64,000 nt of DNA, from positions 1-64,000 of the forward strand of contig CACBMD010000001.1 in NCBI GenBank assembly GCA_902539895.1. Reading direction: 5' to 3'. The position numbers were made by a program, and so were the translations under genes. Below are positions 13,487-29,642 of this stretch, piece after piece (position 1 is the stretch's first letter; every line of letters begins with the position of its first letter). The notes under the pieces were generated by a model. That model did no database searches. It was not told the DNA's origin and was given only the letters and a program-made list of their open reading frames with translations. The DNA is from an uncultured SAR116 cluster alpha proteobacterium (GTDB lineage Bacteria; Pseudomonadota; Alphaproteobacteria; Puniceispirillales; Marisalimonadaceae).

Positions 13487-15196
13487 TTATAAATAAATTT
13501 TCCATACAAAGATGAAAATTAATAAAATTATAAAAAGTTGTATAACTATTAAAGTATCTTGACCAACTTCTCTATCAAAAACTTTGTTTTTTTTCATTAT
13601 ATTAGCAAAAAACTTTCTAATATTCATAAACATAAATCCAATTAATTGTTCAATTTTTTTATTGATATTATTAATAAGATTTAAAAGAGGTAATAAAACC
13701 CCTGGTATCATTTTTCTATAAATCCAATCGCTATTTAAAACAGTTGAGTTCAGCTCTGGAGGATAGATTTTGAAATGCCATAAACATATAAATGCAAATG
13801 CAGCAAATGTTAAAAGCTGCAACTGTCCAACAACGTGGCTAAAGTCATACGGTTGATATTGAATTTGATAGGGTAGAATTTCATAGAAATAAGAAGGAAA
13901 AACTCCAATTAATATACAAAGAGTAGATGCCGTAATCATTGCAATTATCATATTTAATGGAGCTTCTTTTGTTTTAATACCACTTTCATGAGCAAAAAAA
14001 GCAAAGAATGGGATTTTAATCCCAGAATGATGAAGTACACCAGCAGATGCAAATAAAAGCATAAAGTAGACAAAAACCAGTCCTTCTTTGCCAAGTGCTG
14101 ACATTATAAGTGATTTTGCAACAAACCCACTGAATAAAGGAAAAGCTGATATGGATATAGCACCAATGATAGTGCATATCGCAGTAATTGGCATGAATTT
14201 AAATAGCCCTCCTAATTCAGAAGCTTTACATGTTCCTACTCTATAAAGAACTGCTCCCATTCCCATGAATAGTAAACCTTTGTAAAGAATATGAGCAAAG
14301 GCATGAGCTACAGCCCCATTAATAGCTAATTCAGTACCAATTCCAATTGCAACTATCATAAAGCCAAGTTGGTTATTAAGGCTATATGTTAAAACTCTTC
14401 GTAGATCATTTTCAATAACTGCAAAGAAGATAGGATAAAAAGTCATAATTGCACCAATTATAATAAGTATTTCAGTACCTGCAAAAGATTTGGCAAAACA
14501 AAAAATAGCTAATTTAGTTGTAAATGTTGAAAGAGCAACTGTACCTATCTCTGAGGCTTCTGGATAAGAATCCTGTAACCAGCCATTTAACAATGGAAAA
14601 GCTGCTTTTATTCCAAAAGCTATGAAAATTAATTGTCCATAAAGGGAATCAATGTCAAAATTTTTAAATTCAGCACTACCAGTTTCAGACATTAATAAAA
14701 TTGCTCCTGCTAATAAAAACATGCCAGAACCAACTTGAATTAAAATGTATCTAAATGCTGATTTATAAGATCTTTCGGTTTTACTTACTAAAATAAGAAA
14801 AACTGAAGTAAATGCTGTTGCTTCCCACCATATAAATAACGTGAATAAGTCTCCAGCATGCACTGCTGCAATTGCAGCTCCACTGTAACTCATAATTGCT
14901 ACATGCTGATTCCAGTGTTTTTCGTGAGCGCCATAAATGACATTTAATATAGCTGCGATGTGAAATATTATTGCAAAGGGTAAGGTTAAGGTATCTGATT
15001 GAAATATTATGAATTCAATATCCATTACATTAATTTTAGAGTGTATACCAAAACCTAATGTTAATGCGTAGGCTGATACCAGAATTAGAACCATCATATA
15101 TATCTGTCTAATAATATGAGGTAAAAATGGGATTAATAATGCCCCAATCATCATTATTAAACCTGGAGGAAAGCTACTTATCATAATAATCCTCAT
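13487..15196 (-). CDS. Mrp/Mnh antiporter NuoL/M/N-like subunit (third copy)
   Basis: Proton-translocating antiporter family: FTLFIWWEATAFTSVFLILVSKTERSYKSAFRYILIQVGSGMFLLAG, LNGWLQDSYPEASEIGTVALSTFTTKLAIF. Confidence 0.85.
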   Translation of the reverse strand: MRIIMISSFPPGLIMMIGALLIPFLPHIIRQIYMMVLILVSAYALTLGFGIHSKINVMDIEFIIFQSDTLTLPFAIIFHIAAILNVIYGAHEKHWNQHVAIMSYSGAAIAAVHAGDLFTLFIWWEATAFTSVFLILVSKTERSYKSAFRYILIQVGSGMFLLAGAILLMSETGSAEFKNFDIDSLYGQLIFIAFGIKAAFPLLNGWLQDSYPEASEIGTVALSTFTTKLAIFCFAKSFAGTEILIIIGAIMTFYPIFFAVIENDLRRVLTYSLNNQLGFMIVAIGIGTELAINGAVAHAFAHILYKGLLFMGMGAVLYRVGTCKASELGGLFKFMPITAICTIIGAISISAFPLFSGFVAKSLIMSALGKEGLVFVYFMLLFASAGVLHHSGIKIPFFAFFAHESGIKTKEAPLNMIIAMITASTLCILIGVFPSYFYEILPYQIQYQPYDFSHVVGQLQLLTFAAFAFICLWHFKIYPPELNSTVLNSDWIYRKMIPGVLLPLLNLINNINKKIEQLIGFMFMNIRKFFANIMKKNKVFDREVGQDTLIVIQLFIILLIFIFVWKIYL

Positions 15197-15401
15197 CTTT
15201 CATAAGGAATGATCGTAAACTAACACCAATTTTAAAAATAACTATGCATGACACATATCCAAAAAAAGCTGGAAAGAATAAAATATCTTCTATTGATGTT
15301 TCTCCATGCCTATGTCCAATTAATTCTAAAATTAGAAAAATTATACAGAGAAAAAGCACTGAGGTATTTATTTTACCAAATTTTTCAATTAAATACTTCA
15401 T
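15174..15401 (-). CDS. Small membrane protein embedded in the Mrp/Mnh operon
   Basis: 75-aa ORF with two TM-like segments, overlapping both neighbours. Confidence 0.6.
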   Translation of the reverse strand: MKYLIEKFGKINTSVLFLCIIFLILELIGHRHGETSIEDILFFPAFFGYVSCIVIFKIGVSLRSFLMKDEDYYDK

Positions 15402-16855
15402 ATCCTACTCACAATCATAGAAGTTAGATTTTGAAATGGTTCTATAAAAAAGAATAATAAAATAGTTAAAAAAGAAGTTATTAAAGTTGGGATTAAAATA
15501 AGTTTTGGTATTTTTATATTGATTTCTCTTTCTTTTTTAAAAAAGAATGCTCTAGCAGGGATTTCCATCAAATAAAATGCATTAAGTATAGTAGATATGC
15601 AAAAAACACCAATAACAACTACATAACCACTGTCTGCTGCACCTAACATTAAAAAGAATTTACTCCAAGAACCTACCATTGGAGGAACTCCAATTATTGA
15701 GAGTGAACCAACAAAAAAAGCAAGAAAAATTAGTGGCGCGCTCATGCCATGACCATTCAAATCTGAAATTTTTGTAATTTTTGCTCCAACATACAAAGCT
15801 CCTGCTACAAAAAATAAAGTAATTTTACCAGCAGCGTGTGTAATTATGTGCAAAGCTGCGCCTTGTGTTGCCATTGAAGAAGCCAATGCTCCTCCTAACG
15901 TTATATAAGAAAGTTGACTAATAGTTGAATATGCCAGTCTTGCTTTTAAATCATCTTTGTAAATGGCTATTATACTTGTTGCTAGAAGAGTAAAAGATGC
16001 TAACCAGATTAGCCATTCTGATGCACCTGTCTTGGCTAAAAAATCTATTCCAAAAACATTTGTCAGCACTATTAACATTGTAAACACACCCGCTTTTACA
16101 ACTGCTACAGCATGTAAAAGGGCGGATACAGGTGTTGGTGCAACCATAGCAGCAGGTAGCCACTTATGAATTGGCATAAGTGCTGCCTTTCCAATTCCAA
16201 AAACAAACATTGCTAATAATAGTGGTGCATAGGCTGCATCTAATTTTCCTTCTAAAACGCCATTTTGGGACATTTCTAAAGAACCTGTAGCAACCCAAAC
16301 CCAAATGATTGCTGGAAGAAGTAATATAACAGAAGATCCAACTAATATGGACATATATAATCGACCAGCTTTTTGAGCTGTTTCATTTTGATTATGAGTA
16401 ACTAGAGGATATGTTGAAAATGTAAGAACTTCGTAAAAGATAAATAATGTTAATAAATCACTAGCATAAGCAATACATATAGCGGCATGAACAGCCATTG
16501 CATAAAATGCATAAAATCTTGTTTGATTTTTTTCTTTATTTCCCCTCATGTAGCCAATTGAATAGATAGCTGCAAAAATCCAGAGAAATGATGCAACCAG
16601 TCCAAAAATAGCACCTAAGGGTGTGACTTCAAAACCAATTGATACTCCTTCAGCTATCTTAACAATTTCTAGTGTGGTGTTTTGATTATTAAGTGCTGAG
16701 TTCATAATATTTAACGCACCCCAAGAACTAATAATACCGCCAATTGGTCCCAAGAAATCTCTCAAAATTGTATTTTTTGAAGTGAATGGAGTTAAAACAC
16801 AAACGATTAGAGGTGATAAAATTGTGATTAATATAAAATTTTCAATTGTTATCAT
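15398..16855 (-). CDS. Mrp/Mnh antiporter NuoL/M/N-like subunit (second copy)
   Basis: LLTLFIFYEVLTFSTYPLVTHNQNETAQKAGRLYM, GKAALMPIHKWLPAAMVAPTPVSALLHAVAVVKAGVF. Confidence 0.88.
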   Translation of the reverse strand: MITIENFILITILSPLIVCVLTPFTSKNTILRDFLGPIGGIISSWGALNIMNSALNNQNTTLEIVKIAEGVSIGFEVTPLGAIFGLVASFLWIFAAIYSIGYMRGNKEKNQTRFYAFYAMAVHAAICIAYASDLLTLFIFYEVLTFSTYPLVTHNQNETAQKAGRLYMSILVGSSVILLLPAIIWVWVATGSLEMSQNGVLEGKLDAAYAPLLLAMFVFGIGKAALMPIHKWLPAAMVAPTPVSALLHAVAVVKAGVFTMLIVLTNVFGIDFLAKTGASEWLIWLASFTLLATSIIAIYKDDLKARLAYSTISQLSYITLGGALASSMATQGAALHIITHAAGKITLFFVAGALYVGAKITKISDLNGHGMSAPLIFLAFFVGSLSIIGVPPMVGSWSKFFLMLGAADSGYVVVIGVFCISTILNAFYLMEIPARAFFFKKEREINIKIPKLILIPTLITSFLTILLFFFIEPFQNLTSMIVSRI

Positions 16856-18342
16856 TTTATATCCCCAATTAATTTATCAGCGGCTTCAAAACTTCCGTTA
16901 ACAACTAATGAAGCATCTAGACCAAAATAAATATTTAGAAAAGTTATAATGATAAGTGATATATAAATTGTTGGGTTTTCTTTTTTTACAATTTTTTTTC
17001 CCTCACGCATCCACATGACTTCTATTATTTTCCACAAATAAACAACTGATAATGCTGAACTAATTAATATGAGTACTGCTAACCATATACCATCTGAGCT
17101 GATAGATGCTTTAATTAAATATAATTTTGATATAAATCCAGCTGTAAGTGGCAGGCCAGCTAGGCTTAATGAACATAGAACAAAACAAAAAAAAGTGATA
17201 GGCATTTCTCTACCTAGACCAGATAAATTATTTACAGTAACTCTTTTATTAATGTAGAAAGCAATTGACGTTATAGCTATGAACAAACCACCTTTAATAA
17301 TCGCATGATTGAACATATGTATAAAACCAGCTGCTATACTCGCTTTTGTTCCAATAGCAAATGCTAGAGTTATATATCCTATTTGAGCAACTGAAGAGTG
17401 AGCTAGTAACCTTTTAATATCTTTCTCATATATAGCCATAATTGTGCCAGCAAACATAGCTAATAGTGAAAGTGGAAGTATAACAAACAATAAAGTGTTA
17501 TTTACCAAATCTTCTGAATTTTCAAAAATAGAAAATAATATCCGAGCTAATATATACAAAGAAGCTTTTGTTGCTGTTGCTGCCAGTAATACAGATACTG
17601 CAGATGGAGCATAAGCATATGCTCGTGGTAACCAAATATGTAATGGGAAAACAGCTGCTTTTACCATAATCCCAATTATCATAAAACCAAAACCTGCGAT
17701 TAATGCTCTGTTATTATTGATATCAGCAATTCTATTTGTTAGGTCAGCCATATTTAAAGTGCCAGTTACCCCGTATAGTAATCCTACACCTATTACATAT
17801 AACGTTGCCCCAACTGCGCCTATGATAAGGTAATTATAAGCGGCAACTAAAGCCTGTTTATCTTTATGAGCACCTATTGCCACAAGAGCAACAGAGGCTA
17901 AAGATGATATTTCTAAAAAAACAAAGAGGTTGAATGCATCGCCTGTAGTTACAAGACCTAGTAAGCCTGCTATAGCTAAAAGCCATAAACTATAAACTTT
18001 AGATATTGATTTCTTTTCTATTTCCTCAGGCATTATCTTATAAGCAAAGATAGTTGCTAAAAAACTTATACCTGAGATTATTATAATTGGAATTATTGCT
18101 ACCTTATCAATAATATATTCTATTCCTATTGGTGGCATCCATTTGCCTAAAGCATAAGAAATATGTGAATGAATTTGAATTTCTTGATATAATAAAATCG
18201 AAAATAAAAATGTTAAAAAAGTACTTAAAGTTGTCAAAGCCCATGAAAAAAATATATTAGGAATCAGCACAACTAATAAAGACATCATCAATGGACATAA
18301 AACTACAATAATTGGAAGATTTTTTATTAAAATGTCTATCAT
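16852..18342 (-). CDS. mnhD: Mrp/Mnh antiporter subunit D
   Basis: AFNLFVFLEISSLASVALVAIGAHKDKQALVAAYNYLIIGAVGATLYVIGVGLLYGVTGTLNM; KAAVFPLHIWLPRAYAYAPSAVSVLLAATATKASLY. Confidence 0.88.
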   Translation of the reverse strand: MIDILIKNLPIIVVLCPLMMSLLVVLIPNIFFSWALTTLSTFLTFLFSILLYQEIQIHSHISYALGKWMPPIGIEYIIDKVAIIPIIIISGISFLATIFAYKIMPEEIEKKSISKVYSLWLLAIAGLLGLVTTGDAFNLFVFLEISSLASVALVAIGAHKDKQALVAAYNYLIIGAVGATLYVIGVGLLYGVTGTLNMADLTNRIADINNNRALIAGFGFMIIGIMVKAAVFPLHIWLPRAYAYAPSAVSVLLAATATKASLYILARILFSIFENSEDLVNNTLLFVILPLSLLAMFAGTIMAIYEKDIKRLLAHSSVAQIGYITLAFAIGTKASIAAGFIHMFNHAIIKGGLFIAITSIAFYINKRVTVNNLSGLGREMPITFFCFVLCSLSLAGLPLTAGFISKLYLIKASISSDGIWLAVLILISSALSVVYLWKIIEVMWMREGKKIVKKENPTIYISLIIITFLNIYFGLDASLVVNGSFEAADKLIGDIK

Positions 18343-18752
18343 TTCTTAAACTTAAAATCGAAATTTTTGCCAGTTTCAATGTCATCGTGATAATCTACAA
18401 GATCTTGTGCAGATACATCATCTTCTTCAATACTGCCGTATTCTGAGTTAATTCTTAACACTAAAGATAATCCCAAAGCTGTTGTTGCCACACCAACAAC
18501 AATAGCAGTAAGTATCAAAACGTGAGGAAGAGGATTTGAATAAATAGTGTCAATAGATTCATTTAAAATTGGAGGTGTGCCTCCTTTGATTTTTCCAAAA
18601 GTTATATATAGTAGAAATACAGATGTTTGAAAGATAGCTAATCCAACAATTTTTTTTAAAAAATTTTTTCTCCCTATTACTAGAAACAAACCAATCATCA
18701 TTAGACAAAAAACTATCCAGTAATTCCAAATGCCAATTGTTGAAGAAATCAT
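18339..18752 (-). CDS. mnhC: Mrp/Mnh antiporter subunit C (NuoK-like)
   Basis: NPLPHVLILTAIVVGVATTALGLSLVLRINSEYGSIEEDD. Confidence 0.88.
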   Translation of the reverse strand: MISSTIGIWNYWIVFCLMMIGLFLVIGRKNFLKKIVGLAIFQTSVFLLYITFGKIKGGTPPILNESIDTIYSNPLPHVLILTAIVVGVATTALGLSLVLRINSEYGSIEEDDVSAQDLVDYHDDIETGKNFDFKFKK

Positions 18753-18753
18753 T

Positions 18754-19182
18754 TTATTTCTCTTTTACTTTATCGTAACTAGCGAAAGCGTTAAAAAGTG
18801 CAATCATTACGTTTGAAACTGTTAAACCAACACCAAATTCAACTAACAGTATACCAATGTGCTGACCTGATTGTGGGGAAGAACCAAGTATATTGTACGC
18901 TAAAAACTCATCTCCTAATATCATTGAAACAATGCCAACACCACCATAGACTATTCCGCCTAAAGCCAGTAATATCAAATTAACGTTTGTTGGAAACAGT
19001 TTTTTGCCTGCCTCAATACCAAATACAAGAGAATATAGGATAAATGCACTAGCTACAATTACTCCAGCTTGGAAGCCTCCTCCAGGACCAAAATCTCCAT
19101 GAAATTGTACATAAAGTCCAAAAAGTATGATAGGTGCAAAAAGTATTTTAGTAGAAATTCTCAAAATTGGATTATTATGCAT
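18754..19182 (-). CDS. mnhB: Mrp/Mnh antiporter subunit B
   Basis: KILFAPIILFGLYVQFHGDFGPGGGFQAGVIVASAFILYSLVFG; start MHNNPILRI preferred over the longer ORF. Confidence 0.88.
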   Translation of the reverse strand: MHNNPILRISTKILFAPIILFGLYVQFHGDFGPGGGFQAGVIVASAFILYSLVFGIEAGKKLFPTNVNLILLALGGIVYGGVGIVSMILGDEFLAYNILGSSPQSGQHIGILLVEFGVGLTVSNVMIALFNAFASYDKVKEK

Positions 19183-19753
19183 TTTTCTTAATCTTTTGTT
19201 TAGGTTGAGATTTATTCTTTTTAGTAGTGTTTTTCTTCTCCAGAAGGGCAAGCACAGCTACTCCTGCAGTAAAAACGACTATTGTTTCGCCAAAAGTATC
19301 GTAACCCCTATAACTTGCCAATACTGAAGTAACTATATTGGGAATACCAATATCCTCTTTAGATCCTTTAATATATTCAGGTGCAATATGTTGGTGTATT
19401 GGAGCTGTTAACTGTCCAATTTCAGGTAAATCAAAACTACACCAGATTAATATTCCTCCTAGGATTACACAAGAAAGTGCCGGAATAAATTCACTGCTAA
19501 TGCTCTTTTCTTCTTTTTTGGGCAAATAAGCCATAGCTGCTAAAAATAGTATAGTAGAGATTCCTGCGCCAACTGATGCTTCTGTAAAAGCAACGTCAAC
19601 TGCATCTAATGTTATAAACATTAATGCAGCTACAAGAGAATATGCACTTGTCAAAATTACGGTAAATATAACAGTTCTAGTTTTAATAAGAGCTATTGCG
19701 ATACTAAGCATAATTGTCACTAAAAAAGCATTAATTAATAGTTCAGAAATCAT
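19175..19753 (-). CDS. MnhA C-terminal/DUF4040-like (MbhD/E-like) subunit
   Basis: SAYSLVAALMFITLDAVDVAFTEASVGAGISTILFLAA; position between MnhG and MnhB. Confidence 0.8.
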   Translation of the reverse strand: MISELLINAFLVTIMLSIAIALIKTRTVIFTVILTSAYSLVAALMFITLDAVDVAFTEASVGAGISTILFLAAMAYLPKKEEKSISSEFIPALSCVILGGILIWCSFDLPEIGQLTAPIHQHIAPEYIKGSKEDIGIPNIVTSVLASYRGYDTFGETIVVFTAGVAVLALLEKKNTTKKNKSQPKQKIKKNA

Positions 19754-20070
19754 AAAATTTTCCCAATCTTCTTCCCTAGTGGAAGTATATTTTTTTGCCT
19801 TGCTAAATTTGCTGTTACATGACTTGTTACAGGACTAGTAAAAAAAATGAACACACCAATTAATATCAACTTAACGGTTATTAATGACCAACCAGTTTGA
19901 AAAATCATCCCTAAAATAAAAAACGCAGTACCGCCAGTATCAATCATACCAGCGGCATGAATTCTTGAAAATACATCTGGTAGCTTAATAAGTCCACAAG
20001 CGCCAATTATAATAGACAGAGAACCAATAAAAAAACAAATGCCTGAGAAAATATCTAATATCAATTCCAC
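19750..20070 (-). CDS. mnhG: Mrp/Mnh antiporter subunit G
   Basis: GACGLIKLPDVFSRIHAAGMIDTGGTAFFILGM; TSPVTSHVTANLA. Confidence 0.9.
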   Translation of the reverse strand: MELILDIFSGICFFIGSLSIIIGACGLIKLPDVFSRIHAAGMIDTGGTAFFILGMIFQTGWSLITVKLILIGVFIFFTSPVTSHVTANLARQKNILPLGKKIGKIL

Positions 20071-20072
20071 TT

Positions 20073-20336
20073 TTACTTATCTCCTCCCAAGGAGCCAGTG
20101 CTAAAAAGTTTTAAAACAGCAACTGTTCCAATAAAATTAATCAATGCATAAACAATTGCGATGTCTAAAAATTCTGGTCTACTTGAATAAAAACCATGAA
20201 GAGAAATCCCGATAACTATAACAGTGCCAAGACTATTAACTGCTAAAATTCTATCAAATGTAGTTTTGCCTAAAATAATTCTCACTAAAATGAGAATACC
20301 TGTAATTGCGCAGGCAATTAAACCAGCTAAAAACAT
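20073..20336 (-). CDS. mnhF: Mrp/Mnh antiporter subunit F
   Basis: RIILGKTTFDRILAVNSLGTVIVIGISLHG; ALINFIGTVAVLKLFS. Confidence 0.88.
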   Translation of the reverse strand: MFLAGLIACAITGILILVRIILGKTTFDRILAVNSLGTVIVIGISLHGFYSSRPEFLDIAIVYALINFIGTVAVLKLFSTGSLGGDK

Positions 20337-20803
20337 TATTTCTTACCCTCTAACCAAGTTACTTTGTTGTCCATTTCATTTGTTCGAACATCATTTCCAA
20401 AATCAGAATTTAATGCATGTACCTCAAAAACATCCTTCTGCATTTTTGTTGTAACTGTTCCTGGTGTAAGTGTTATCGAGTTAGCATATGTAACTTTTGC
20501 AACATCGGTGACCTGAGAAGCTTTGACGGTAAAGGTTTCAGGCTCAACTTTTCCGTTTATAATTACTTTTGCAGTGCTTAAATTTGATTTCAATATTTCC
20601 TTAAATAACCATATAATATAATTCAAAAGTCTTGGTATGAAAAATATTGGCAGACCTTCATCATCAATGAGCTTGCCACGTTTAGCAACAAAAACACAAA
20701 ATGCACATGAAAATATACCTAGACTTATTATGAGTATACTATAGTGTCCTGACATCAATAACCATAAAGTAAGTAGTATGAAAAAAAGGATTAATGATTT
20801 CAT
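20336..20803 (-). CDS. mnhE: Mrp/Mnh antiporter subunit E
   Basis: DVAKVTYANSITLTPGTVTTKMQKDVFEVHAL; first gene of the operon. Confidence 0.88.
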   Translation of the reverse strand: MKSLILFFILLTLWLLMSGHYSILIISLGIFSCAFCVFVAKRGKLIDDEGLPIFFIPRLLNYIIWLFKEILKSNLSTAKVIINGKVEPETFTVKASQVTDVAKVTYANSITLTPGTVTTKMQKDVFEVHALNSDFGNDVRTNEMDNKVTWLEGKK

Positions 20804-22722: not shown

Positions 22723-23850
22723 ATGCAGAATTTTTTATTTACAAGTGATATTTTTAGAGGCTCTAGATATGAAAAAGGTCATCCCCTCGACATGGATAGA
22801 GTATGGCCAAGTGTAGAGCTTATAAAACTTATGGGATGGGTAAAAGAAGATCAAATTATAAAAAACTCACCCGCGGATATTAGTGAATTAATTAAATTTC
22901 ATGATTTAGACTATGTAAAAGCATTAAAAAAGGCTGAAGAAGATCAAAATCTTCCAGACAATCTTAAGAAGAAATTTAATATTGGTATTGGAAATAATCC
23001 AATATTCAGAGAGGTTTTCTCAAGACCGGCAACTGCTGCTAAAGCCTCTATAAAAGCTGTTGAAATGATAGTGAACAAAAAAGCAAAAAAAATTTTAAAT
23101 ATATCTGGTGGAACTCATCACGGACGAAAGTCACAAGCTTTCGGCTTTTGTTTTCTAAATGACTGTGTTTTAGCGATTCTAAAAGCCTTAGAATTTAATT
23201 TAAAAAATATCGTTTATGTAGATCTTGATGCTCACCATTGTGACGGAGTGCAAGATGTTTTTTCTGAAAATGAGAATGTGTCAATTATATCGATTCATGA
23301 AAAAAATAGATGGCCTAAAACTGGTAAATTTGAGGATAACAAACTTTTCAACGTAATAAACTTTCCTGTCAATGAGGATTTTAATGATAATGAAATGGAC
23401 TATATAGTAACTAACGTTATTATTCCTTTTTTAAAAATCAAGAAAGCTGATCTTTTAATAATTCAAGCAGGTGCTGATATGTTAGATGGTGACCCTCAAT
23501 CAAGAATTAGTTTGAGCAACAATGCGTATTGGAAGGCAGTCAGAGATATTCAGTCTCTTAATGAAAATGTTATAATCTTGGGTGGTGGTGGCTATAATCC
23601 ATATTTAACGGCAAAGGCTTGGGCTGGTAACTGGGTTTTAATAAATGATAAAGAAGAATATTTAGACCAAGAGATGAAGCCGCAGTGTTATGATTTTCTT
23701 AAATCTCTTACTTGGCATAATAGACGAGTTAAGAACGGGATCCCAAATAAATGGATTAGTGCATGGAGAGACGAATATAAAAATGCTGCAGTAGGTGATG
23801 ATATTTTATTTCTTGTAGATAAAATGTTAAAAATTAAAAAAATATGCTAA
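22723..23850 (+). CDS. Histone deacetylase family protein
   Basis: NISGGTHHGRKSQAFGFCFLNDCVLAI, VYVDLDAHHCDGVQDVF, IIQAGADMLDGDPQSRISLS. Confidence 0.92.
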   Translation: MQNFLFTSDIFRGSRYEKGHPLDMDRVWPSVELIKLMGWVKEDQIIKNSPADISELIKFHDLDYVKALKKAEEDQNLPDNLKKKFNIGIGNNPIFREVFSRPATAAKASIKAVEMIVNKKAKKILNISGGTHHGRKSQAFGFCFLNDCVLAILKALEFNLKNIVYVDLDAHHCDGVQDVFSENENVSIISIHEKNRWPKTGKFEDNKLFNVINFPVNEDFNDNEMDYIVTNVIIPFLKIKKADLLIIQAGADMLDGDPQSRISLSNNAYWKAVRDIQSLNENVIILGGGGYNPYLTAKAWAGNWVLINDKEEYLDQEMKPQCYDFLKSLTWHNRRVKNGIPNKWISAWRDEYKNAAVGDDILFLVDKMLKIKKIC

Positions 23851-24311
23851 GCCAAATCATAATTTCTATGTTAGGAACTTTCCTAATAGCTTTTCCAAGT
23901 TCTTTATTTTCTGAAATTAATAGTCCAATATTCAAACAAATTGTTTGTAGTGTTAATTTTGGAAATAAAAATGCTAAAGAGTTATCATTAGAAATTGCTG
24001 ACAATGAACAAAAAAGATCCTATGGATTAATGAATAGAAAAGACATGAAATCTAATTCAGGAATGTTGTTTATTTGGAAAAATAGACAAATTCGGAATTT
24101 CTGGATGAAAAATACTCATTTTAATTTAGATTTGTTTTTTTTGAATAACCAAGGTGAAATAATTGAGATTTATAAAAATGCTAAAGCATTTGATGAAACT
24201 AACATTAAAAGTCAAAATGAAGTAAAATTTGTGGTCGAATTAAAATCTGGAGAGTATCCACTCCAAATAGGAGATAAATTTAACTGTCCATTTAAAGAAT
24301 TATTGAAATAA
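23844..24311 (+). CDS. DUF192 domain-containing protein
   Basis: EIADNEQKRSYGLMNRKDMKSNSGMLFIWKNRQIRNFWMKNTHFNLDLFFL. Confidence 0.9.
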   Translation: MLSQIIISMLGTFLIAFPSSLFSEINSPIFKQIVCSVNFGNKNAKELSLEIADNEQKRSYGLMNRKDMKSNSGMLFIWKNRQIRNFWMKNTHFNLDLFFLNNQGEIIEIYKNAKAFDETNIKSQNEVKFVVELKSGEYPLQIGDKFNCPFKELLK

Positions 24312-24473: not shown

Positions 24474-25340
24474 TTAGGCCATCATAGGTTCTTGGTCACC
24501 AACTAAGGTAACTCTATGCATAATCCTTTTGATAGTATTGTTATCAAAAGGTTCAACTGAATGCATTGTACATCTATTATCCCACATCACAATGTCATCA
24601 TTATTCCAAATATGTTTGTAAACATATTTAGATTGAATTGAATGTTCTATTAAGAAATCAAGCAATTCTCTTCCTGCACTATCATCATAATCAACAATTT
24701 TTACCATCGTATGTGGTGATAAAAAGAGACTAGATTTCTTATTTGAAGGATGTTTCCTTACCAAAGGATGAATAACAGGATCAAGTTTATCATAATTGCC
24801 TTTGTTTTTTCTTTTGCTAAGTTCGTCAGACAAACTTATTATAAAGTCGTTATCGTGTACTACATTTAAGCTTTTTATTTTCTGTTTCATCGACTCTTCT
24901 AGGTCATCATAAGCTTTATACATATTTGCAAATAGAGTGTTTCCTCCTTTATTTGTGGTAGAAATACCATGAAGAATAGATCCATTACTTGGTATTTTTC
25001 GAAATGAACTATCAGTATGCCAAAGCCAGGATTGTTTCAAATATTGCCAAGAAGTTTCTTTGTTAGTAATAATTTTACCATTTTCATCAACATTTGAAAC
25101 TCTATAAATTTCAGGATTTCTTGATGATCTATGAGATAAAGAAGGATGAATTTCTAGTTCACCAAATCTTTTCCCAAATTCAATATGAACTTCATCAGAA
25201 ATATTTTAATTGGGAAATACAATAACTAGATATTCAAGCCATAATTTTTTTATTTTTTGAAAAGTATCGTTATCTAAATTTGAAATTTTAATGCCTTCAA
25301 TTGAAACTCCTATATTCTCATGTAATTTTTTTACAATCAT
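24474..25340 (-). pseudogene. TauD/TfdA family dioxygenase with internal TAA at codon 45 (25206-25208)
   Basis: MIVKKLHENIGVSIEGIKISNLDND...YLVIVFPN*NISDEVHIEFGKRFGELEIHPSL... continues in the same frame into ORF 24474..25040. Confidence 0.88.
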
Positions 25341-25375: not shown

Positions 25376-26128
25376 TTATTTCAATTTAATTAGTAAATCT
25401 GCAGTACGTCTCTGGTTTGCTACAACACGTTCGCGATCTGCTTGTATGCGTTCACGTCGTTTAGCAATGTCATCACCAAGTTCTAAGATGCCTTTTGTGT
25501 CGTTCTCGACACGATTTACCAAATCATTAGCGTCTTTCTCTGCTATATTTGCTCTTTCTAGCAGTTTGTCTAATCGTTCGGTATTAGATTTTACAAATTG
25601 TGCATTTGCATTTGAAGTTGCCTTTCTCATTTGCTTAGCAATAGATCCATCAGCCCAGTCAGCATTTTCAGAAATCATGGTATCACCTTGTTCAACCACT
25701 GACTCATTTGCTTCAGTAATCAAACCGTTAACTGACTGCAACATCTGATTTACTTCAATCATTTTTGTAGCAATGTCACGTAGAGTATCATTGAGGTCAG
25801 TACGGTTTTCAAGTTGTTCAATCCTAACTTGATTTGACATTCTAACCTTGAAATTATTTTGAACATCAGATGTGGGTTCTAGTGCTTCAAGCATTGCCAT
25901 TCTACAGCCATACAGATCATTGACATTGTCAATTGCTATTGATCGGTTGCCCATAAAAGCAGAAGTAAAATTTCTTTGTAGCAACGAACGATTTTCCTCA
26001 ATATCAGCCAGTAAAAGCATGAGTTCAGCGTATGTCGTAGACACCTCTGCATCCAGCTCAAAAATCCTACGTCTGTTCTTACGAATATTCGTTTTATTTT
26101 CAGATATTAAATCAGTTTTTTTTGCCAT
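25376..26128 (-). CDS. Predicted coiled-coil protein of unknown function in PII/DUF1538 cassette
   Basis: 250 aa, charged and Leu-rich heptad-like, no TM; same strand and tightly spaced after the PII-like genes. Confidence 0.7.
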   Translation of the reverse strand: MAKKTDLISENKTNIRKNRRRIFELDAEVSTTYAELMLLLADIEENRSLLQRNFTSAFMGNRSIAIDNVNDLYGCRMAMLEALEPTSDVQNNFKVRMSNQVRIEQLENRTDLNDTLRDIATKMIEVNQMLQSVNGLITEANESVVEQGDTMISENADWADGSIAKQMRKATSNANAQFVKSNTERLDKLLERANIAEKDANDLVNRVENDTKGILELGDDIAKRRERIQADRERVVANQRRTADLLIKLK

Positions 26129-26139
26129 GGTTTCACCTA

Positions 26140-26526
26140 TTATTCTGTAATTTCCTCTAACTCTGTGTGATCATCATCCTGGAGTACATGTTTAGTGGAT
26201 TTCTTTAGTTTGTTCATATAGATTATTCCTTTATTTGGCTCTGATAAGTCGCAGAAGCGATAAATAAAATCAAATATATTCTCAGCTTGGTCAGCTGTTA
26301 CTACAGCATGAAATTGTTCTACATCAAAAGAACCTGAAACACCTGAAACAGTTTTCTGCCCGATCATTGTGCCAGCCACGTTGTAAAAGTAAACTTCATT
26401 TATATTACGTTTCATTAGCTCAGGGATTAACTTGTCTGTACCACCTTCATACAATATACCTGAAATTAACCAAGTATAATCAAGATAGTTTACCCTAGGA
26501 TCTGTTTTTATTTCAGAAAAGACCAT
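26140..26526 (-). CDS. PII-like (GlnB-fold) protein, second copy
   Basis: 128 aa; INEVYFYNVAGTMIGQKTVSGVSGSFDVEQFHAVVTADQAENIFDFIYRFCDL; located 1 bp after the first PII-like gene. Confidence 0.55.
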   Translation of the reverse strand: MVFSEIKTDPRVNYLDYTWLISGILYEGGTDKLIPELMKRNINEVYFYNVAGTMIGQKTVSGVSGSFDVEQFHAVVTADQAENIFDFIYRFCDLSEPNKGIIYMNKLKKSTKHVLQDDDHTELEEITE

Positions 26527-26527
26527 C

Positions 26528-26887
26528 TTACGAACCTACATATTTAGATAAAATGGAAGGTGGAACGTAGGTGGCAGCCTGCATTAGAGGAGTAGCGTAC
26601 ATGAAACCCATACCAGGCGTATCCAACTTTCCAGCTAAAAACATTCGTTCAAAAACTCTATCTACTTCATCACTTGAAACCATAACATTGACGACATCTC
26701 TTTCGGCATCAACAGCAACACCTAAAGCCCCTAATCTTTCGCGAATCCCGACACCCATTGCGCCATGCACGGTTGATCCTTGAATTCCTACCTCCAGTAA
26801 AGCGTCAGTAATGATTTCCCCATAACCATGTTGAACAACTGCAGTAATTAGTGTTGCTTCAGTTAAGGTGGTAAATGAACGTTTCAT
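26528..26887 (-). CDS. PII family (nitrogen regulatory-like) protein
   Basis: LITAVVQHGYGEIITDALLEVGIQGSTVHGAMGVGIRERLGALGVAVDAERDVVNVMVSSDEVDRVFERM; 4-bp overlap with the DUF1538 gene. Confidence 0.75.
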   Translation of the reverse strand: MKRSFTTLTEATLITAVVQHGYGEIITDALLEVGIQGSTVHGAMGVGIRERLGALGVAVDAERDVVNVMVSSDEVDRVFERMFLAGKLDTPGMGFMYATPLMQAATYVPPSILSKYVGS

Positions 26888-28674
26888 TTTGTTTCTCCTT
26901 CAAGAGCAAGCTCACGAGCAACGCGGCGCTCCTCACGTTTTACTTTAAATTGTACATAAATACCAAGTGTCAAAACTGCGACAATAGGGCAAATTGATGC
27001 TGCAGCCAAAATTCCAAATCCATCTGTTGAGCCAAGTGCATTTCCAAATCCTAGACCCATCGCAAGCACTAATGGAACAGTTACAGGCCCAGTAGTCACA
27101 CCTGCAGAGTCCCAACCAACATTGACGAATTCCTCAGTCGATAAAAGAGTTAATATTAATCCAAGGGTGTAGCCAGGTATTAAAATATACATTATATGAA
27201 ACCCATATATAAGCTTTAAAACACCTAGCATAATTCCAGTACCCACACCAAATGCGACAGCTATCATTAACATGGATTTTTTAAATGCACCGTTTGTTAA
27301 ATTTTGCACTGTCATCCCAAGGGCATTCAGAGCAGGCTCTGCAAGAGTGGCTGATAGACCAAGAACCCAAGCAAACAAACCTGCAATCCCGACACCTACA
27401 GTCATGCTATAAAGCGGACTTGCTGTGATTGCATCAATTGATGTAAAAGCACCTGCAATCAATCCGCCGGATTGATCTCCGAGTTTCGCTAAACCGTAGG
27501 TTAAACCGATATTAAAAATACACATTCCAACGACTGCTAGTATAATTCCATAGTAAGTTATGAAGGCATTTTTCAACTTTTCTCGCAAAATTACTAATAG
27601 CACCACTGCTAAGAAAATCACCAATGGTACAATGGCTCGTACACCTAAAATTACTTCTGTCCAAGGGGTAACTTCATACCATTGTGGCTGAGAGGTTGCA
27701 GTCTGAGCGGCTAATTTTATTTCAGCTGCCTTTTCGATAATCAGTTCAGCAGGAACTGTGTAAGCAGTATAAAAGCTTAGTATCAACACGCCCAGGATTG
27801 GGAACACTGATGCCAATGTCACAATACCAAACCCGGATAATGAAGAATCTGCACCTTTACCGGCTGCTGCAGCGACACCAATACCAAGTGCAAGGACTAA
27901 TGGTACTGTTACTGGACCAGTTGTAACTGCCCCACAATCCCAAGCTAAACCAACAATTTTAGTTAGTTCAGGGTCCATGAAAGCAATAATACTCAAAATT
28001 AAAGTAGGGGTAACGCTCATAAAAATCATTGGCTTTAAACTCCAGCCACGTAAGAACCTTACTGTCCCCAAAACTGCTGCTAAACCAACGCCAAGTCCAA
28101 CTAGTAAAACAGTCGCACCAGAACGATCATTTAGTAGTGTAAATAAATAAGGTGCTTGTTCTGGATTGACAATTGATCCAGCTACCTGCAATGCGCCAAT
28201 TGCTGGCTCGGCAAATGTTACACCTATCCCTAACAGGAATGCAATAAATAGTACGCCAGCCAATGGTAATTTACGAGGTAAAGTGTTTCCAATTATCTCA
28301 CCGAAAGGCATAAGTCCAAGCTTCAGGCCCTCCATAAACATCATCAAGCCAATCATAACAGCAAACAATCCGCCTGCAATTATACTTGCGTCCATAACAG
28401 GTGTTTGAAGAACTAAATATTGGAAAAGTGCCAAATAAATTGCCAGTGGAACAACTGCACGTGCCTGATCAATAAATCGTGTAGACAAATATGGTTGCAG
28501 AATTTTAAATATATCACCACCGCCCAATTTCATTTTTGGAACAGGTTGTGGATGTTCATTACCATGACGATCAAACAATGGCTCTGGCATTAATTCTTGG
28601 TATGGAATTTTTTGACTGTCGATTGACATTGCTTGGATGTAATCACCAAATCTTATGGTTTTGCGTCGTGCCAT
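26884..28674 (-). CDS. DUF1538 domain-containing multi-TM protein (two tandem DUF1538-like halves)
   Basis: Repeated motifs: WDCGAVTTGPVTVPLVLALGIG and WDSAGVTTGPVTVPLVLAMGLG; GVTFAEPAIGAL and SATLAEPALNAL. Confidence 0.88.
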   Translation of the reverse strand: MARRKTIRFGDYIQAMSIDSQKIPYQELMPEPLFDRHGNEHPQPVPKMKLGGGDIFKILQPYLSTRFIDQARAVVPLAIYLALFQYLVLQTPVMDASIIAGGLFAVMIGLMMFMEGLKLGLMPFGEIIGNTLPRKLPLAGVLFIAFLLGIGVTFAEPAIGALQVAGSIVNPEQAPYLFTLLNDRSGATVLLVGLGVGLAAVLGTVRFLRGWSLKPMIFMSVTPTLILSIIAFMDPELTKIVGLAWDCGAVTTGPVTVPLVLALGIGVAAAAGKGADSSLSGFGIVTLASVFPILGVLILSFYTAYTVPAELIIEKAAEIKLAAQTATSQPQWYEVTPWTEVILGVRAIVPLVIFLAVVLLVILREKLKNAFITYYGIILAVVGMCIFNIGLTYGLAKLGDQSGGLIAGAFTSIDAITASPLYSMTVGVGIAGLFAWVLGLSATLAEPALNALGMTVQNLTNGAFKKSMLMIAVAFGVGTGIMLGVLKLIYGFHIMYILIPGYTLGLILTLLSTEEFVNVGWDSAGVTTGPVTVPLVLAMGLGFGNALGSTDGFGILAAASICPIVAVLTLGIYVQFKVKREERRVARELALEGETK

Positions 28675-28844: not shown

Positions 28845-29642
28845 TTATGTTTTCCATTTAGGTTCTCTTTTTTCCAAAAAGGCTTTCAAACCTTCCTGGG
28901 CATCTGGGGTTGTTGCAGCATTACAAAAATCTTCAACTGCATTAGCAACACCTCTTCTGTAATCAAGATCATTAGTTCTTAAAAAGGCTGCTCTTCCTAA
29001 ATTCATAGATATTGGTGATTTCTTTGATAAGTTTATTGCTATTTCATTAGCTTTTTCTCTAATTTCACTTGATAAAACTTTTCGACTAATTAACCCTAGC
29101 ATAAGCGCTTCATCAGAATAAAATGTTCTACCACTAAAAAGTAAGTCAAATGCTTTATATCTTCCGATAATTCTTGGAAGATGTGTGAAATGGATTGCAG
29201 GTAACAATCCTAAGTTTATTTCTGGATATCCAAATGAAGCTTTTTCTGAAGCAATAATTATATCACATGATATAGCTAGTGTCATGCCTCCACCTCTTGC
29301 AGCTCCGTTGATTGATGCTATTGTAGGCTTTCCCATGTTATATTGAATATCCCAAAGATCTATATAGAGGCGTTTTAAAAACTCTCTAATTTCTAATCCT
29401 GACTTATTTATTAAAAGATTTAAATCTAGACCTGCAGAAAATATCCCGTTGACGACACTTTCTAAAATGATAGCTCTTACTTCTTTATCTTTAGAGGCAA
29501 TTTTAAGTCTGTCTAAAATATCATTTAAAAAATCAATGCTAAATGCATTGGAAGGATTACGTTTCAGTGTTATCCATGCAATGTGATCTATAACTTTATA
29601 TTCAATTAATTTGTCCATATTGATATTTAAATTTAACTTCAC
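28845..29642 (-). CDS. Enoyl-CoA hydratase/isomerase family protein
   Basis: Crotonase fold: IFSAGLDLNLLI, KPTIASINGAARGGGMTLAISCDIIIASEKASFGYPEINLGLLP. Confidence 0.92.
   Translation of the reverse strand: MKLNLNINMDKLIEYKVIDHIAWITLKRNPSNAFSIDFLNDILDRLKIASKDKEVRAIILESVVNGIFSAGLDLNLLINKSGLEIREFLKRLYIDLWDIQYNMGKPTIASINGAARGGGMTLAISCDIIIASEKASFGYPEINLGLLPAIHFTHLPRIIGRYKAFDLLFSGRTFYSDEALMLGLISRKVLSSEIREKANEIAINLSKKSPISMNLGRAAFLRTNDLDYRRGVANAVEDFCNAATTPDAQEGLKAFLEKREPKWKT

Follow-up and report, generated by a model that had tools for sequence, protein, structure and literature searches.

The locus lies within a window of 64,000 nucleotides, by which we mean the whole stretch of DNA analysed here, from an uncultured SAR116 cluster alphaproteobacterium, and it comprises the following four genes.

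25376-26128, minus strand: CC, a soluble all-helical coiled-coil protein of 250 aa, with no family over cut-off
26140-26526, minus strand: PII2, a diverged PII-superfamily protein of 128 aa, assigned by family-profile homology only
26528-26887, minus strand: PII1, a PII-superfamily protein of 119 aa, with Pfam P-II over cut-off
26884-28674, minus strand: a fused double-DUF1538 (UmpA-UmpB-like) membrane protein of 596 aa, with two DUF1538 domains

The open reading frames were recovered just as the first-pass annotation, which was made from the letters alone, had described them, namely as four same-strand genes packed end to end, with a 4-bp overlap between the DUF1538 gene and PII1 and a 1-bp gap between PII1 and PII2; the gap between PII2 and CC is 11 bp. 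The anatomy is operon-like, and a promoter and terminator scan of the locus returned signals near the level of shuffled sequence. Near-identical loci, with 97-100% identity in DUF1538, come from uncultured SAR116 cluster alphaproteobacteria. The window's own genome is represented by an assembly of 1.44 Mb that is 69% complete, and DUF1538 was found in nine of 37 mostly incomplete genomes of its genus, eight of which carry the four-gene set and the ninth of which (G305) carries a diverged three-gene form.

The cassette occupies a variable spot on the chromosome. In same-genus genomes without it (L189-L195), the flanks, HDAC-DUF192 and ECH-610 aa protein (at 23844-24311 and 28845-29642 in the window), are retained at this site and enclose other genes. 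When the window was compared with more distant SAR116 members (L076-L079), third-position identity was 69-77% in the four cassette genes and 47-50% in the flanks, which suggests that the cassette has been exchanged as a unit. Against gammaproteobacterial loci (L087, L090, and L094), third positions were about 38% identical, which is near saturation, and the DUF1538 and PII1 proteins of the same loci were 87-92% identical, indicating that purifying selection on PII1 has been as strong as that on the transporter.

Regarding the fused membrane protein, Pfam placed DUF1538 on it twice (E 3.7e-99, 330.7 bits, over cut-off), and the two halves are 31% identical to each other. Among NCBIfam models, the N-terminal half is nearest to UmpA (216.7 bits) and the C-terminal half to UmpB (166.5 bits), both scores being below the equivalog cut-offs of 490 and 500, respectively; by these scores, the protein is assigned as a relative of UmpA and UmpB and not as their equivalog. 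Identity between the fused branch and the split branch, in which UmpA and UmpB are encoded by separate genes, is only about 30-36%. The conserved motifs FAEPA and WDxxGxTTGPVTVPL, of which FAEPA and WDxxGxTTGP are acidic, are present in both halves, and the AF2 model, which is of moderate quality (pLDDT 76, pTM 0.75), appears on our reading of its helix list to break its helices near these motifs in both halves. A sequence search of the PDB returned no DUF1538 relative, and a comparison of the model with PDB folds returned no solved relative (best E 0.019, TM 0.13), so that no mechanism can be borrowed from a known fold. The description of DUF1538 proteins as uncharacterised, with which the locus was originally annotated, is out of date, because UmpAB of Halomonas zhaodongensis has been reported to be a pH-dependent Na+(Li+,K+)/H+ antiporter that acts as a heterodimer (PMC5484666). 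Furthermore, a machine-learning study placed DUF1538, alongside MnhB and MrpF, in its list of the 20 top genes for pH (PMC13255231). Since the tested family member is an antiporter, antiport is the best hypothesis for the fused protein, which is thus a probable monovalent cation/proton antiporter by analogy with UmpAB.

The two smaller proteins downstream of the transporter gene both belong, on profile evidence, to the PII superfamily. PII1 matched Pfam P-II at 27.3 bits (cut-off 25), and its family profile matched many solved PII structures (best E 1.2e-7). PII2 alone had no match in Pfam, and Pfam P-II was matched by five of 47 members of its family; the PII2 family profile aligned with solved PII structures at E 3.8e-5 for the best match and 2e-4 for another, PDB entry 9p1x being the closest, and with the PII1 profile at a probability of 97.7%. 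The earlier suggestion of two diverged PII-like proteins of the GlnB-fold kind is accordingly supported by the sequence profiles (E 1.2e-7 and 3.8e-5). As regards the accompanying idea that they sense nucleotides, the canonical ATP/2-oxoglutarate signature is not kept. In an alignment to E. coli GlnB that is of low confidence in detail, PII1 and PII2 are without the phosphate ligands K90, R101, and R103, and the T-loop of PII1 is shorter and does not contain Tyr51; neither protein therefore has the residues by which canonical GlnB and GlnK are recognized (K90, R101, R103, and the T-loop Tyr51), and classical nucleotide sensing cannot be assumed. Two higher-scoring PII proteins, canonical by score, are encoded elsewhere in the window's genome. 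Cyclic di-AMP is an unlikely ligand here because diadenylate cyclase (PF02457) was found in none of 40 genus genomes, against 11 positives among 14 controls, the window's own genome being 69% complete. The ligand of these proteins is thus probably neither canonical ATP/2-oxoglutarate nor c-di-AMP. A search of viral contigs returned no relative of PII2.

The association of these genes recurs far beyond the window. An alignment of the fused protein was used to scan GTDB species genomes and yielded 445 relatives; the best 80 loci were taken, and seven loci from a further genome search brought the set to 87 (L064, one of the seven, and L096 represent a single IMCC14465 locus). In this set of the best 80 of 445 plus seven, both PII genes lie directly downstream in 83 of 83 testable fused loci, the contigs of the other four (L109, L124, L133, and L144) ending before the downstream genes, and a CC gene lies directly 3' of PII2 in 41 of the 87. 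The carriers include SAR116, Planktomarina, Rhodobacteraceae IMCC1909, IMCC14465, gammaproteobacteria (LSUCC0096 among them), Burkholderiales, Nitrospinota, Bdellovibrionota, and Campylobacterota, with the reservation that the taxon names of metagenome-assembled carriers may be unreliable. In the split branch, UmpA-UmpB is followed by one PII gene in 30 of 30 loci sampled at phylum level, with one family heavily represented, and in most of those sampled at class level. Chance co-location of DUF1538 and PII genes was rejected on the basis of these 83 fused and 30 split loci, and the recurrent neighbourhood that the first-pass annotation had proposed as a check was found in both branches, with both PII genes in the fused loci and one in the split loci. 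Two PII proteins are thus a property of the whole fused subfamily, and CC is an accessory of one clade.

DUF1538 was matched in 125 of 399 genomes of an uneven Pseudomonadota sample, and the family also occurs in Bacillota and Nitrospinota. Plasmid records with an annotated P-II neighbour of DUF1538 were found for Chelativorans, Methylocystis, Peptoclostridium, Vescimonas, and Paraclostridium; on the Peptoclostridium plasmid (Bacillota), a tandem two-domain PII-PII protein (L151:4099-4767, plus strand) is encoded beside a fused DUF1538 protein, and the PII genes at that spot in Vescimonas and Paraclostridium match it in size. The DUF1538-PII linkage is near-invariant in proteobacteria, and the same pairing is found on Bacillota plasmids. 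In one genome (G228), UmpB and PII form a single open reading frame of 384 aa (L066:6008-7162, plus strand) with DUF1538 at residues 21-244 and P-II at 272-371. This fusion may reflect a lost stop codon or an assembly error because it is a single case from one metagenome-assembled genome and the PII start codon is kept at the junction; no further DUF1538-PII fusion was detected among the loci examined or in two other genomes of that order. In four split loci that were inspected (L065, L066, L068, and L069), UmpA-UmpB-PII is followed by a gene for a tandem-CBS protein. This protein, which may be another nucleotide sensor, occupies the position that PII2 has in fused loci.

The AF2 model of CC consists of three long helices (residues 2-82, 88-159, and 172-249) with a mean pLDDT of 94. 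It gave no family match over cut-off, and a fold search with Foldseek returned generic helical bundles only; V-ATPase subunit G and ERp29 were dismissed as merely weak coiled-coil matches. The 41 loci with CC form one clade of the DUF1538 tree (SH-aLRT 99), with the exception of one row in which the contig ends early, and this clade spans alpha-, beta-, and gammaproteobacteria. The inclusion of the coiled-coil protein in the originally proposed set is therefore borne out by its linkage to the cassette at these loci, while its confinement to one clade narrows the claim. CC is the least conserved of the four proteins, at 46-61% where DUF1538 is at 85-90%, and its distances correlate best with those of PII2 (r 0.96). 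Among conserved columns, those specific to the CC clade amounted to 33% in PII2, 5% in DUF1538, and 7% in PII1; however, a control with other clades also gave high values for PII2 (18% in a gammaproteobacterial clade and 40% in another clade), and co-evolution of PII2 with CC on the basis of clade-specific columns was dropped because PII2 runs high in general. CC is thus a clade-specific add-on that may serve as a rod-like adaptor of the complex.

Taken together, these results point, with a probability of roughly 0.6, to the whole locus being a fused UmpAB-type monovalent cation/proton antiporter with its own PII-based unit for post-translational control. By analogy with UmpAB, the single-chain antiporter would exchange cytosolic Na+, K+, or Li+ for H+, and PII1, and probably PII2, would bind as trimers to its cytosolic face, as in the GlnK-AmtB and SbtB-SbtA pairs, and restrain transport by way of their T-loops in response to a small ligand that signals the state of the cell; CC may act as the rod-like adaptor of this transporter-PII complex. 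Insertion of a PII T-loop into a transporter has a precedent in the structure of SbtA-SbtB, the report of which also cites AmtB-GlnK (PMC8352866), and the location of a PII-type gene next to that of a proton-coupled cation pump has one in PII-NG beside CzcABC (PMC7726332). The earlier view of a ligand-gated channel or transporter has consequently been sharpened: the view that a transporter and two diverged PII-like partners make up one conserved unit is supported, and the open choice between channel and transporter gives way to antiport as the leading hypothesis. A more specific proposal is put forward tentatively, and we consider it more likely to be wrong than right: the system would be an undescribed class of PII-controlled cation/proton antiporters in which a fused antiporter receives two signals, each through its own PII trimer, with the CC rod bridging PII2 to the complex, so that the energy or metabolite state would be linked directly to ion and pH homeostasis in many bacterial phyla.

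Other readings of the same genes were considered. The fused protein may move a different solute, such as bicarbonate, ammonium, or an organic ion, under gating by the PII proteins, with cation antiport restricted to the split branch. Bicarbonate and ammonium are the substrates of the known PII-gated transporters (PMC8352866), and the low identity between the two branches, together with the scores below the UmpA and UmpB cut-offs, would fit this reading; nevertheless, the sole tested members of the family are cation/proton antiporters (PMC5484666), the acidic motifs are common to both halves, and the family is associated with growth pH (PMC13255231), and we regard a different solute as unlikely. 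It is still less probable that the PII proteins are not gates at all and instead have other targets or are structural, obligate subunits of the assembly, their linkage being a matter of operon inheritance. The absence of the canonical ligand residues would fit this reading, but the linkage has persisted across phyla, whether DUF1538 is fused or split, with one UmpB-PII fusion, and umpA and umpB alone suffice for antiport without a cloned PII gene (PMC5484666) in E. coli, a host that has its own PII. Because UmpAB alone is active in E. coli, PII is better regarded as a modulator than as a subunit of transport.

A further question is whether CC belongs to the antiporter unit or is a neighbouring gene that travels with the cassette. 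Its absence from half of the sampled fused loci, its low conservation, and the unspecific nature of the changes in PII2 that seemed to follow its arrival would suit a passenger. On the other hand, all 41 CC genes lie directly after PII2 and fall in one clade that has kept the gene in three proteobacterial classes, its distances track those of PII2, and the 398 other sampled Pseudomonadota genomes held no convincing copy. We therefore consider a passenger role doubtful, if deserving of some weight, and retain the adaptor within the preferred reading of a PII-controlled antiporter.

Compared with UmpAB (NCBIfam NF041627/NF041628), the present system shares the DUF1538 family and its two homologous halves, with the N-terminal half near UmpA and the C-terminal half near UmpB, but has one fused chain, scores under the equivalog cut-offs, and two PII genes plus CC in place of the one PII of the sampled split loci. 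SbtA-SbtB likewise places a transporter gene beside a PII-like gene, and the same gating by a T-loop at the cytosolic face is proposed (PMC8352866); however, DUF1538 showed no relation to SbtA in sequence or fold searches, and two PII proteins plus CC are present here. With GlnK-AmtB it shares a PII-superfamily gene adjoining a transporter gene, a genetic linkage seen in 83/83 fused and 30/30 split loci, whereas DUF1538 is not Amt and the PII proteins here are without Tyr51 and K90/R101/R103. PII-NG with CzcABC is also a PII-type protein beside a proton-coupled cation exporter, CzcABC being a divalent-metal RND pump unrelated to DUF1538 (PMC7726332). The PII-like fold is further shared with PstA/DarA, the c-di-AMP-binding PII-like proteins, but diadenylate cyclase was found in 0/40 genomes here. 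Cyclic di-AMP is tied to potassium homeostasis.

PII proteins rank with the most widespread of signal proteins, yet to our knowledge, few transporters are known as their targets. Should DUF1538 antiporters prove to be under PII control, the sensing of metabolites would bear directly on Na+/K+/H+ homeostasis, and a near-invariant third gene would be added to the published two-component picture of UmpAB. A search of that report for PII terms found none (PMC5484666), and a search of the literature outside subscription papers for PII proteins encoded next to antiporters brought up nothing about DUF1538. The adjacency itself is visible in public records, in which NCBI annotates the neighbours as 'P-II family nitrogen regulator'. 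As far as our tools show, a PII-antiporter unit with two PII proteins and a helical rod is undescribed, and its parts are of known kinds.

Two further features of the window were observed. A complete-looking Mrp/Mnh-type Na+/H+ antiporter operon lies at 13487-20803 on the minus strand, about 4.6 kb from the cassette, and encodes MnhE, F, G, MbhD/E, MnhB, a C-like protein, and three Proton_antipo_M subunits. Downstream of the cassette, a TauD-family dioxygenase gene (24477-25340, minus strand) has an in-frame stop at codon 45; the copies in sister genomes are intact at 288 aa, and the gene in the window is probably a recent pseudogene or the product of a sequencing error.
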